Assembly (NCBI GenBank): GCA_029260555.1
Contig: JAJDCZ010000044.1
Location: forward strand, 1-64,000
DNA: 64,000 nucleotides
Direction: 5' to 3'
Source: Phycisphaerales bacterium
GTDB taxonomy: Bacteria; Planctomycetota; Phycisphaerae; Phycisphaerales; UBA1924
Part shown: positions 13,165 through 59,939 of the stretch, piece after piece
Layout: every line of letters starts with the position of its first letter
How positions within the stretch are numbered: the first letter of the stretch is position 1
The notes under the pieces: generated by a model
Seen by the model: the letters and a program-made list of their open reading frames with translations, nothing else
Told to the model about the DNA's origin: nothing
The model's database searches: none
Program-made: the position numbers and the translations under genes

Positions 13165-13240
13165 ACGAGCCGAGACCGTCAGGGAGCGGTCTTCTCCAGA
13201 GCATTTCTACCATTCCCGCTCCCTTACGGTCGCGGCTCGT
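13165..13240. repeat. Inverted pair of a dispersed palindromic repeat (REP-like)
   Basis: Two 25-base arms (13165-13189 and 13216-13240) are reverse complements with two mismatches, separated by 26 bases, and can form a long hairpin between the divergent acyltransferase and mqnA genes. The arm core CTGACGGTCGCGGCTCGT, or close variants, recurs at 37149, 54798 and 59916, and inverted at 59865, always between genes. Confidence 0.85.
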
Positions 13241-34346: not shown

Positions 34347-36095
34347 TCAAACTATCGGCAGGCTCACCCGCGACTCCAGCTCATCAACAGGCACCGCGAT
34401 CAAATCATAATCCTGCCAGCCCACGACCACACACCGCACCAACTCGCCTGATGCCTTGGGTGTGCGCGAGCGCACGAAAGTCACCGCATCGACCTGCGGA
34501 GCCTGGAAATAACAGCGACCCTGCTGAAGAAATCGGCTGTTTTCATCATTGGGAGCAGCATCGCTGGCCAGACCCTGATCAATCAACACATCAAAACGCA
34601 CGCCTGTCTTCAGAGGATCCTCAGCATCGAACTGACCCGCCAGATATTCAGCCTGCTCAAAGGCGATCTCCTGCTGAAGTGCCATCAACTCGCCCTTGCG
34701 CTGAGCCTTGATGCGTGCTGGCACCGCCAGTTTCATATCCTGCTCCAGCGTACCTGCAGGCGTGCCGGGTTCTGCAGAATACTCAAACACCCCCAGGGCT
34801 TCAAAGCCGATTTCTTCAACAAACGCGAGCAATGCGTCATGATCCTGCTCAGTCTCACCCGGAAAACCTGTAATAAGCGTGGTTCTGATCGCCAGCCCGG
34901 GGATTTTCTCACGCAACTCGCACATAAGCTCTGCCTGTTGCGTCGCAGACACATGCCGGCGCATCTTCTCAAGCATGTGATCCGTCGCGTGCTGGAGCGG
35001 AATGTCAATATAAGGCACCAGCACGCTCTGCTCACACATCTCGGCAAACGCCTCGATAAACTCGCTGCGAAAGTTCGAGGGATAGGCATACATCAACCTC
35101 ACCCACCCCATACCCGAAGCCCCGTGTGCCTTTTCAACCGATTCACAAACATCCTTAAGCAGATCAGGCAACCCCCCACGACCAAACAGCCCCCCGGGAT
35201 CAGCCAGTGCCCAGCCCTGATCAAAGCCCAAGCCGATGTCATCGCCATAGCTCGTGGTGTCCTGGCCGATGAGATTGATCTCAAAAGCCCCATCACGGAC
35301 CAGTTCCTGGGCTTCATCTGCAATGCGAGCCCGCGGCTTGGAGCGCATCTTCCCCCGAATCGACGGAATCGTGCAAAAAGCACACTTCTGATTGCACCCC
35401 TCGCCAATACGAAGATATGCGTAGTGCCGAGGCGTCAGCCTGAGCCGGGCTGAATCATCCTCAAAGTAGCCAATCCCTTTGCCATCCTTGCCTTGAACGG
35501 TCAGCCCTGTGGTTTGAATGCCTCGATCTGCAGCCGCACTCAGAGCATTGGCAGAAACCCAATACTTCGGACCATGCTCAGAATCCGCAAGTGCCTCTCG
35601 CTCTGGGGTCTGCCCTGTGACCGCATCAACAATGTGATCTCGATCAAATACACCGATCATCGCATCAATCCCAGGCTCCCACTGGATCATCCTGGCCCGA
35701 TGCCTTTGTACCAGACACCCCGCCACCACCACCCGTTTGAGCCGCCCACGCTCCTTGGCAGCCACAGCCTGTTTAATAACCGCCAGCGATTCATCTTTGG
35801 ATGCTTCAAGAAAGCCACAGGTATTGATCACAATGGCATCAGCACTTGGAAGCGTCTGGGATTCATCAACCTCAGCGTCAGAGACTGGAGCTGAGGATTC
35901 GCCCTCGACATGGGCAGCGTCATCCCACCGCTCAGATTCCTGAGCTTCCCAAGGCACAGGGGTGATGCCTGATTCTGCCAGCAGCCCCAACATTTTTTCT
36001 GAATCAACAAGGTTCTTGGGACAGCCCAGCGAGACAAACGCAACGGTTCGGATCGCTTCGTGAGAGTCGCAAGATGAGGCATTTGACGCAGCCAT
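34347..36095 (-). CDS. rimO: Ribosomal protein S12 methylthiotransferase
   Basis: RimO is a radical-SAM enzyme that adds a methylthio group to an Asp of ribosomal protein S12. The 582-residue protein is longer than the usual ~440. It has the UPF0004 domain (SLGCPKNLVDSEKMLGLL, INTCGFL, AGCLVQRH with three cluster Cys), then the radical-SAM CNQKCAFCTIP triad with GEG before it, and a C-terminal TRAM-like segment (VRFDVLIDQGLA ... GRCYFQAPQVDAVTFVRS). The extra length is mainly an acidic insertion near residues 40-70 inside the first domain and another near 155-220, which I take as lineage-specific. It heads the rimO-ftsW-murG gene set. Confidence 0.94.
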   Translation of the reverse strand: MAASNASSCDSHEAIRTVAFVSLGCPKNLVDSEKMLGLLAESGITPVPWEAQESERWDDAAHVEGESSAPVSDAEVDESQTLPSADAIVINTCGFLEASKDESLAVIKQAVAAKERGRLKRVVVAGCLVQRHRARMIQWEPGIDAMIGVFDRDHIVDAVTGQTPEREALADSEHGPKYWVSANALSAAADRGIQTTGLTVQGKDGKGIGYFEDDSARLRLTPRHYAYLRIGEGCNQKCAFCTIPSIRGKMRSKPRARIADEAQELVRDGAFEINLIGQDTTSYGDDIGLGFDQGWALADPGGLFGRGGLPDLLKDVCESVEKAHGASGMGWVRLMYAYPSNFRSEFIEAFAEMCEQSVLVPYIDIPLQHATDHMLEKMRRHVSATQQAELMCELREKIPGLAIRTTLITGFPGETEQDHDALLAFVEEIGFEALGVFEYSAEPGTPAGTLEQDMKLAVPARIKAQRKGELMALQQEIAFEQAEYLAGQFDAEDPLKTGVRFDVLIDQGLASDAAPNDENSRFLQQGRCYFQAPQVDAVTFVRSRTPKASGELVRCVVVGWQDYDLIAVPVDELESRVSLPIV

Positions 36096-36373
36096 CCAAG
36101 GCTACTGTATCCGCCTGACCATCCACAAGCAGTTTCATTAGAATGATTCAATTCATCCCAGCCTATCTCGGCACCGAGATTGATGGCCCATTATCCATAT
36201 GACGCATCAGACTGTCCCAATTTTCATGGAACATCGCCTGCTCAAGAGACGAATAGAAGGATGTCACCTTGACCGTGACGACCCGGACCAGGCATGAGGC
36301 CAAGAAGCTTTTTTTCAAATTGCTCGCCTGATGACAGATGAATGGTTCGGGTGTATTACCACGAAAAACTGCG
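36096..36373. other. Intergenic stretch before the RNA candidate
   Basis: This 278-base stretch lies upstream of rimO on one side. It contains no convincing gene; a minus-strand frame crosses it without ribosome site or recognisable motif. It must contain the rimO promoter and probably that of the structured RNA. Confidence 0.5.
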
Positions 36374-36580
36374 CTGCGGAGCTGGGCAATGCTTGGAAAA
36401 GCGTTGCAGGCATGTGGTGTGCAATCGAAAGTCCGCAGGGGAAACAGGGGTTCGCAATGTGAGGGAGCATTGCGATCTTTGGGCGTCATAGGGCTGCTCG
36501 TTCAGAGCCTTGAGAGGGATCCATGACGCCTGGTGTGCTCAGCGGGAGAAATCCCGCTGAGACACTTGCTCGGTGAGTGT
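36374..36580 (+). ncRNA. Candidate multi-helix structured RNA, family unknown
   Basis: At least five helices follow one another. (1) CTGCGGA 36374-36380 pairs with TCCGCAG 36432-36438, enclosing (2) a nine-pair hairpin 36386-36394/36399-36407 capped by GGAA. (3) TCGCAATG 36452-36459 pairs with CATTGCGA 36468-36475. (4) GGCGTCAT 36482-36489 pairs with ATGACGCC 36523-36530 with an inner GGCT/AGCC stem. (5) A ten-pair stem 36538-36547/36552-36561 capped by GAAA, extended by GTGT/ACAC with one bulge. Both tetraloops are GNRA only when read on the plus strand, fixing orientation. I do not recognise it as RNase P RNA, tmRNA, 4.5S or 6S RNA. It lies in a 667-base gap with no convincing gene and precedes a small winged-helix-like gene. 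Confidence 0.65.
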
Positions 36581-36762
36581 CGTGCAGGATTCAGTTTGTT
36601 CGTTTTCCGCGTAGACCTGCACTTCTCTGAAAAAAACCGACAGACCAAGGCCCGCAGGTGGGATGATCAGAGATGGTTATGCCGGGGAAGGATGAGGATG
36701 GTCCCAGAACGCCCTGGAAGGTGGAGTTTCGGGGCTCATGGAGAGAAGAGAGGGGATTTATC
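36581..36762 (+). promoter_or_regulatory. Leader region of the small winged-helix gene
   Basis: This stretch connects the structured RNA to the downstream gene. A GAGGGG ribosome site lies about eight bases before the ATG at 36763. I see no terminator between the RNA and the gene, so the RNA could be a long 5' leader rather than a separate transcript. Confidence 0.45.
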
Positions 36763-37011
36763 ATGAAGTTAGCCATCAACAAGCGAGGCAGCCTGCTGAT
36801 CGCGCTGGAAGCTTTGTTTTATGACGATTCCAGACGCTTTGAGGATCGACTCTGGCTGGGCTTTGGCGATCACTGGCTGCTTGTGCGTTCCGGCCTTGTG
36901 CGTGATGGCGTGATTTCCATCAACAAGAACGAAACTTCCATCAGACTGACCTCCAGAGGTCGGCGTCTGGTCGAAAAACTACAACGCGATGTGCCAGACA
37001 CAGCCCGCTGA
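36763..37011 (+). CDS. Small winged-helix-like protein
   Basis: An 82-residue protein. The C-terminal half (LLVRSGLVRDGVISINKNETSIRLTSRGRRLVEKL) has the pattern of a winged-helix beta-wing: a helix ending in L.R.G, two short strands and an LTS.GR..V closing helix, as in MarR/PadR/phage-type regulators. The N-terminal half is a helix-rich MKLAINKRGSLLIALEALF. A strong GAGGGG ribosome site decides the ATG at 36763 over an in-frame upstream ATG at 36673. It could bind DNA or RNA; no partner gene is adjacent on the plus strand, and the structured RNA lies 180 bases upstream. Confidence 0.6.
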   Translation: MKLAINKRGSLLIALEALFYDDSRRFEDRLWLGFGDHWLLVRSGLVRDGVISINKNETSIRLTSRGRRLVEKLQRDVPDTAR

Positions 37012-37148: not shown

Positions 37149-37171
37149 ACTCCCTGACGGTCGCGGCTCGT
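37149..37171. repeat. Single copy of the dispersed palindromic repeat
   Basis: The core CTGACGGTCGCGGCTCGT is identical to the copy at 59921-59938 and nearly so to that at 13216-13240. Here only one arm is found, in the gap between the small winged-helix gene and the WD40 gene. Confidence 0.85.
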
Positions 37172-37254: not shown

Positions 37255-38286
37255 TTATGAACTTCTGACAGCGTTTGCATTCCAGACGCGTGCAGTGCGA
37301 TCAACTGAGCCTGTCACAATGCGGGACGCATCGTTTGTCATGGCGACAGCTTTGACCGCAGCGTGATGCCCGATCATTCGTGCAATTTCCTGCCCTGCAT
37401 CAACATCCCATAGCCTGGCGGTGCGATCACTGGATGAGGATGCTGCCAGATGGCCGCTTTGATCGAGAGTCGCGCTGCAGATGGCTTTGCCGTGGCCTTT
37501 GATTTTGGAAACAAGTGTGCCGGAATGGGTTTCGTAGATGCGAAGTCGCCGATCGCCACAGGCGATGATGATTCGATTGCCATCTGCTGAAAAATCAATT
37601 GCGTGAATACCCAGAATCTGCTCGGGCAGCGTGATGGTTGGTTCAAGGGTGCTCACGCTGCGAATGGTGACAACGCCTTCAGCATCGCCAGCTGCAAAAA
37701 GCTCGCCACCAGGATGAATCGCAATGCTCCTCACGCTGGCATCATGAGCAACCTGGCTGATCAACGCAGAAGTGTGTGCATCAAAGATTCTGACGCAATC
37801 ATCGTATGAGCCTGCAACAACCAGCTTGCCATCGGGGCTTAAAGCACAAGAGGCAATCATCTCAGAATGCGTTTCAGGCTCAGACCTTGCGAACTTTGTG
37901 AGATAAAGAAGGGGATAGAACGCTGTTAAAACTGTACTGACAGCCTGAAAAAAACTGGGATGCTGTCTGGCAACAGGCTCATGGGTACTCATGCAGGCGA
38001 GTTGCTCACCAGTGGCAAGATCAAAGATGCGCGACGAGCTGTCATCTGATCCTGTCAGAGCACCGAGGCTGTCGGGTGTAAACGCAACCGCGTTGATTGC
38101 ATCAAGATGTCCTGTCAGTTCATGGATGAGCACGCCGGTGTCGGTGTCAAAGAGCCTGGCAATGCCATCAGCACAGCCCGTCAGAACAAACTGACCATCC
38201 TCTGATATTGCAACGGCATTCACCGCGCCCTGATGGTGGGTCATGGTGGCACTCTGGGCGAGTTGTCGCATGTCAGGATGGATCAT
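37255..38286 (-). CDS. WD40 repeat beta-propeller protein
   Basis: A 343-residue protein made almost wholly of WD40 repeats, about seven, spaced roughly 42 residues apart, each with a GH/AH start and a closing W/F-D pattern (ARLFDTDTG, SRIFDLATG, VRIFDAHTS, RLRIYETHSG, ARLWDVDAG, ARVWNANA). It predicts a complete single propeller. There is no signal peptide, so it is likely a cytoplasmic scaffold. A roughly 30-residue insertion near residues 108-140 (VLTAFYPLLYLTKF) is hydrophobic and interrupts the pattern between repeats 2 and 3. It starts 42 bases after pdxH on the same strand, with a poly-G tract in the gap. Confidence 0.88.
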   Translation of the reverse strand: MIHPDMRQLAQSATMTHHQGAVNAVAISEDGQFVLTGCADGIARLFDTDTGVLIHELTGHLDAINAVAFTPDSLGALTGSDDSSSRIFDLATGEQLACMSTHEPVARQHPSFFQAVSTVLTAFYPLLYLTKFARSEPETHSEMIASCALSPDGKLVVAGSYDDCVRIFDAHTSALISQVAHDASVRSIAIHPGGELFAAGDAEGVVTIRSVSTLEPTITLPEQILGIHAIDFSADGNRIIIACGDRRLRIYETHSGTLVSKIKGHGKAICSATLDQSGHLAASSSSDRTARLWDVDAGQEIARMIGHHAAVKAVAMTNDASRIVTGSVDRTARVWNANAVRSS

Positions 38287-59864: not shown

Positions 59865-59939
59865 ACGAGCCGCGACTGTCAGAAAGTGATGGACCGTTGT
59901 TGATCAACTGAACAACGCTCCCTGACGGTCGCGGCTCGT
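59865..59939. repeat. Second inverted pair of the dispersed palindromic repeat
   Basis: Arms 59865-59888 and 59916-59939 are reverse complements with about four mismatches and a 27-base spacer. The right arm holds the repeat core. The element lies between the convergent methyltransferase and ABM-domain genes and may act as a bidirectional 3' end. Confidence 0.85.

Follow-up and report, generated by a model that had tools for sequence, protein, structure and literature searches.

The gap between rimO and a small downstream gene contains a compact, closed multi-branch element, which we consider a plausible, unproven and lineage-restricted candidate for a structured RNA (Table 1). Our preferred reading, put forward tentatively, is that the downstream winged-helix gene has this element as its folded 5' leader. 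Under this model a promoter at about 36331-36359 would drive transcription of the plus strand of 36366-36588. The RNA would form a compact, closed domain with several branches, placed at the extreme 5' end of a leader of about 400 bases preceding the gene at 36766. The folded domain might act in cis on the stability, elongation or translation of the downstream mRNA, and a switch could naturally sit at its 5' arm, which has two near-isoenergetic pairing partners, 36432-36438 and 36582-36587. Transcription, strand, leader role and switching are all parts of the model that we infer.

Table 1. Features of the element and its surroundings; positions are those of the window, i.e., the whole 64,000-nucleotide stretch of DNA that was analysed.
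Feature	Position	Strand	Details
Closed multi-branch structured element	36366..36588	+	z -5.9 (+), -5.8 (-)
Terminal closing helix	5' arm 36369..36374 CUGCGC; 3' arm 36582..36587 GUGCAG	+	probability 1.0 in 36366-36588
Enclosing helix of the preliminary description, 7 bp, perfect	36374..36380 CUGCGGA / 36432..36438 UCCGCAG	+	alternative to full closing helix
Hairpin, 9 bp including one G-U, loop GGAA (GNRA)	36386..36407 (36386-36394/36399-36407)	+	probability 0.60-0.99 by 3' end used
Hairpin, core UCGCAAUG/CAUUGCGA extended by CAGGGGU/AUCUUUG	36445..36481	+	core probability 0.94; 0.86-0.99
Long irregular hairpin closed by GGCGUCAU/AUGACGCC	36482..36530	+	probability 1.0
Hairpin GGUGU-g-CUCAGCGGGA(GAAA)UCCCGCUGAG-ACACU, GNRA loop	36532..36566	+	probability 0.87-0.99
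Promoter-like site (putative) ATGACA - 17 - TATTAC	36331..36359	+	top 0.1% of window positions
Gap between rimO and small gene	36096-36765		670 bases; rimO (-) ends at 36095, next ATG at 36766
rimO, upstream divergent gene	34347..36095	-	TIGR01125 above cut-off
Small winged-helix-like protein gene, conserved, about 81 aa	36766..37011	+	

A gap of 667 bases with no convincing gene had been described here; it measures 670 bases, and none of the ORFs inside it matches a Pfam family above cut-off. A protein-coding nature of the element region was rejected on this ground and by the lack of any match to a decayed gene. On a larger scale, the GC skew changes at about 36 kb, from strongly negative values (-0.2 to -0.4) over 10000-36000 to near zero or positive values over 36000-64000, roughly where the minus-strand genes cease. 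A replication origin at this point was considered and rejected, as DnaA-box-like sites are not enriched (11 found, 9.05 expected). Further downstream, a seven-stretch WD40 beta-propeller gene (37255-38286, minus strand) adjoins pdxH and dnaB.

The folding signal is sharply bounded to about 36366-36588, and the flanks fold no better than random sequence on the plus strand (z of -0.6 for 36096-36365 and +0.9 for 36589-36765). The helices named in the preliminary description were all found in place, four of them perfect and a fifth with 9 bp including one G-U pair; the extent of 36374-36580 given there does hold these helices, but the element is larger, with a closing helix that reaches 36587. 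In the best fold, pairing of 36376-36378 and 36381-36388 with 36567-36580 extends this closing helix, and the hairpins 36391-36402, 36403-36425, 36445-36481, 36482-36530 and 36532-36566 lie inside. The third of these has a perfect core of 8 bp (36452-36459/36468-36475), the fourth is closed by a perfect helix of the same length (36482-36489/36523-36530), and in the fifth a perfect 10-bp helix (36538-36547/36552-36561) carries the loop GAAA.

The domain is closed off by the terminal helix, in competition with the helix 36374-36380/36432-36438, which had been thought to enclose others. The multi-branched architecture proposed earlier holds, but its enclosing helix is a minority conformer whose probability falls from 0.94 to 0.12 once the 3' end is included. 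The alternative fold, containing both the enclosing helix and the complete 9-bp GGAA hairpin, reaches -103.6 kcal/mol under constraint, 5.1 kcal/mol higher than the best fold (-108.7 kcal/mol). The probability of the terminal helix varies with the 3' end chosen, being 0.74 for 36366-36600, about 0.01 for 36366-36640 and 0.62 for 36366-36780; it is nearly lost in the second case because 36582-36588 pairs with 36616-36622 instead. A near-repeat, AAAGTCCGCAGG at 36428-36439 and AAGGCCCGCAGG at 36647-36658, provides two possible 3' partners for CTGCGGA at 36374; the second copy precedes the downstream ATG by about 110 bases, and the whole near-repeat could be due to chance.

The helices exceed chance. 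For the 241 bases of 36360-36600 the MFE is -109.8 kcal/mol, compared with -84.1 +/- 4.6 kcal/mol in shuffled sequences (z -5.57; minus strand, -5.64), and four stems have 7 or more perfect pairs, where shuffles hold 0.59 such stems on average and only 3 of 500 reach four. Lower folding z values within the window belong only to two REP-like inverted pairs, at 13.1 and 59.8 kb. Among 3970 windows covering 399 kb of the same genome, ten had a composition-corrected energy at least as extreme, a comparison in which the element's own window was placed and the others lay on a grid. Windows as extreme as this fall on REP-like repeats, on the 3' part of RNase P RNA and on stems beside 16S rRNA, hence on DNA repeats as well as on real RNAs, and genuine RNase P RNA and tmRNA reach z values of only -0.4 to -2.1 in fixed 200-base windows, so that a high z neither proves an RNA nor is required for one. 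Single-sequence folding is not evidence of functional RNA structure (PMC8250186). The preliminary judgement of a strong candidate for a new structured RNA, sound as to a bounded non-coding structure with no Rfam match and weakened by the absence of conservation, should therefore be read as plausible, unproven and lineage-restricted.

Several observations favour the leader. Besides the confinement of the structure, the start predicted for the promoter-like site at 36331-36359 would lie near 36366, about 3 bases before the first helix. This site and another at 36115-36144 score best among the promoter-like sites on the plus strand of the gap, and both lie upstream of the element, whereas weaker plus-strand sites inside or downstream of the element would leave the gene with a short leader or no leader. 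As the plus strand shows no terminator-like site from the element to the downstream ATG, the simplest transcript would have the element as the 5' end of a leader. Both tetraloops, GGAA and GAAA, are GNRA loops on the plus strand only, as had been pointed out before, a coincidence with a chance of about 0.002 by composition (both loops, either strand); a GNRA-type argument has been used for strand assignment previously (PMC2864571). These two loops are the only evidence on the strand, the folding energy having no strand preference. That several of the similarly extreme windows of the genome are genuine RNA features, namely the RNase P and 16S-flanking ones, likewise supports the leader. On the other hand, the promoter-like site is a match to the consensus only and was missed by a stricter scan, folding energy is equal on both strands, and nothing comparable precedes the homologues of the downstream gene or rimO.

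The downstream gene is conserved, which also speaks for the leader. Homologues were found in 17 of the 101 genomes searched (its own included), at 33-46% identity and in varying gene contexts, and the 81-residue protein shares the motifs RRFEDxLWLGFGDxW and LTERG with them. It has a sub-threshold Pfam match (ArnR1-like_WHD) and no NCBIfam match, and the best structural matches of its confident model (pLDDT 89.5) are winged-helix DNA-binding proteins, though statistically weak, with F93 as the closest in the PDB (E 0.048). The gene at 36766-37011 is real and belongs to an unannotated family of small winged-helix-like proteins of about 80 aa.

The element resembles structured 5' leaders and riboswitch-like cis-regulatory RNAs in being a compact multi-helix domain that precedes a gene on its own strand and offers competing pairings. 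It differs from the leaders and riboswitches of Rfam in matching none of them and in having no conserved core shared between genomes. Moreover, it comes without a recognisable terminator or occluded ribosome site; the roughly 178 bases between element and ATG are unstructured, and hence no ready-made expression platform is seen.

Searches for relatives of the element gave a uniform picture. Against 100 relatives and a set of 400 genomes from the order, blastn returned only short chance matches of 17-47 nt. The best match in the 400 genomes (L143, E 1.9e-4) falls within a coding frame, as do three others, and all four look like chance; a decayed gene of the L143 type in the gap was tested with the L143 protein, and no supporting match emerged. 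A single-sequence covariance model, a method of limited reach, found only the element itself above chance, both in 163 genomes from the family and in 392 from the phylum, the best match in the latter set (E 0.0034, chance level) aligning to an unrelated inverted repeat. For an exact 18-mer taken at the junction, 84,980 genomes (257 Gb) yield 9 matches against a chance expectation of about 7.5, and plasmids, phages and viral contigs held no match to the element. Upstream of the downstream-gene homologues in the 17 genomes and of rimO in the nearest relatives nothing similar was seen, and the few upstream regions that fold strongly (L067, L072, L073) do so through unrelated repeats or hairpins. 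The closest rimO among the compared genomes, in the nearest genera, is about 68% identical; the comparison thus works at genus distance, and no compared genome is near enough for covariation. The missing relatives are an absence of evidence at that distance, yet they argue against a broadly conserved RNA. The search of related genomes that had been suggested earlier, together with a warning that a lack of conservation would refute a new RNA, gave no conservation by blastn, covariance model or neighbour-gene upstream regions, a result that stops short of a full refutation.

This absence of conservation in every search is one reason why the element may have no RNA function and may instead represent dyads bound at the DNA level between the divergent genes, a relic of a mobile element or the extreme tail of a chance distribution. 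We regard this as nearly as probable as the leader. The equal z on both strands fits such an origin, as do the ten or so windows elsewhere that are as extreme, several of them REP-like DNA repeats; three dyads of 22-24 bp are of operator size, and one flanking gene encodes a winged-helix protein. However, the dyads are unlike one another in spacing and sequence, the nested and long-range helices with loops of 33 and 51 bases are ill-suited to operators, and both tetraloops are GNRA on one strand. Furthermore, the element is single copy, with only chance-level partial blastn matches elsewhere in the genome, and it is not the REP-like repeat that is common here.

That repeat, the REP/REPIN-like CTCCCTGACGGTCGCGGCTCGT, occurs in the window at 37150-37171 (plus strand), 13165-13240 and 59865-59939. 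The genome holds 87 copies with at most two mismatches (reversed control, 0), and the repeat is present in 12 of 31 genomes searched; it often forms inverted pairs about 53 bp apart, which are the strongest hairpins of the window. Tagged REP families have been described (PMC3733652). Like REP/REPIN palindromic repeats, the element consists of hairpin-forming inverted repeats in intergenic DNA. Those repeats, in contrast, have many copies per genome, and an identification of the element as REP/REPIN was ruled out, as it occurs only once and lacks the repeat sequence.

An independent, lineage-specific small non-coding RNA of about 220 nt, acting in trans or binding a protein, with the downstream gene as a separate unit, seems rather unlikely. 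The closed domain with its paired 5' and 3' ends and sharp bounds would suit such a molecule, and a U-rich stretch (36592-36606) follows the element while a promoter-like site directly precedes it. Nevertheless, no terminator was found at the end of the element, blastn and covariance-model searches revealed no relatives, and GGA motifs are at chance level (6, with 5.2 expected), so that the signature of a CsrB/RsmZ-type sponge is lacking and this type was rejected. It is improbable, in our estimate, that the element belongs to an undescribed lineage-restricted RNA class, whose two GNRA-capped arms could make tertiary contacts and whose two-state terminal helix would sense a signal and control the small winged-helix regulator.

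A known family diverged past the reach of Rfam, be it a housekeeping RNA or a published candidate outside Rfam, is very improbable. The Rfam search that had been recommended (4227 models, the 64-kb window) gave no known-family match at gathering or relaxed thresholds, and the weak, chance-level matches that remain would be compatible with strong divergence. The best of them, Acido-1 (RF01686), reaches 15.7 bits against a gathering threshold of 50 (E 1.2); the likeness lies in one aligned hairpin of the type GCGGGA-loop-UCCCGC, and the rest of the element is left uncovered. A Planctomycetes candidate, Rhodopirellula-1, has been listed without an Rfam accession (PMC2864571), which favours such a divergent origin. 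Against it, the genome carries over-threshold copies of RNase P RNA, tmRNA, 6S RNA and SRP RNA at other places (C52:155989, C5:63699, C30:6689 and C11:16257, respectively), and therefore the element is none of these, in agreement with the earlier impression that it resembles neither RNase P RNA, tmRNA, 4.5S nor 6S RNA.

The element illustrates the reach of single-genome folding without comparative support. If it has no RNA function, it calibrates how RNA-like the intergenic DNA of this genome can look, at about 10 in 3970 windows. If it is transcribed and functional, it would add an orphan structured RNA to a planctomycete family that has been little studied.
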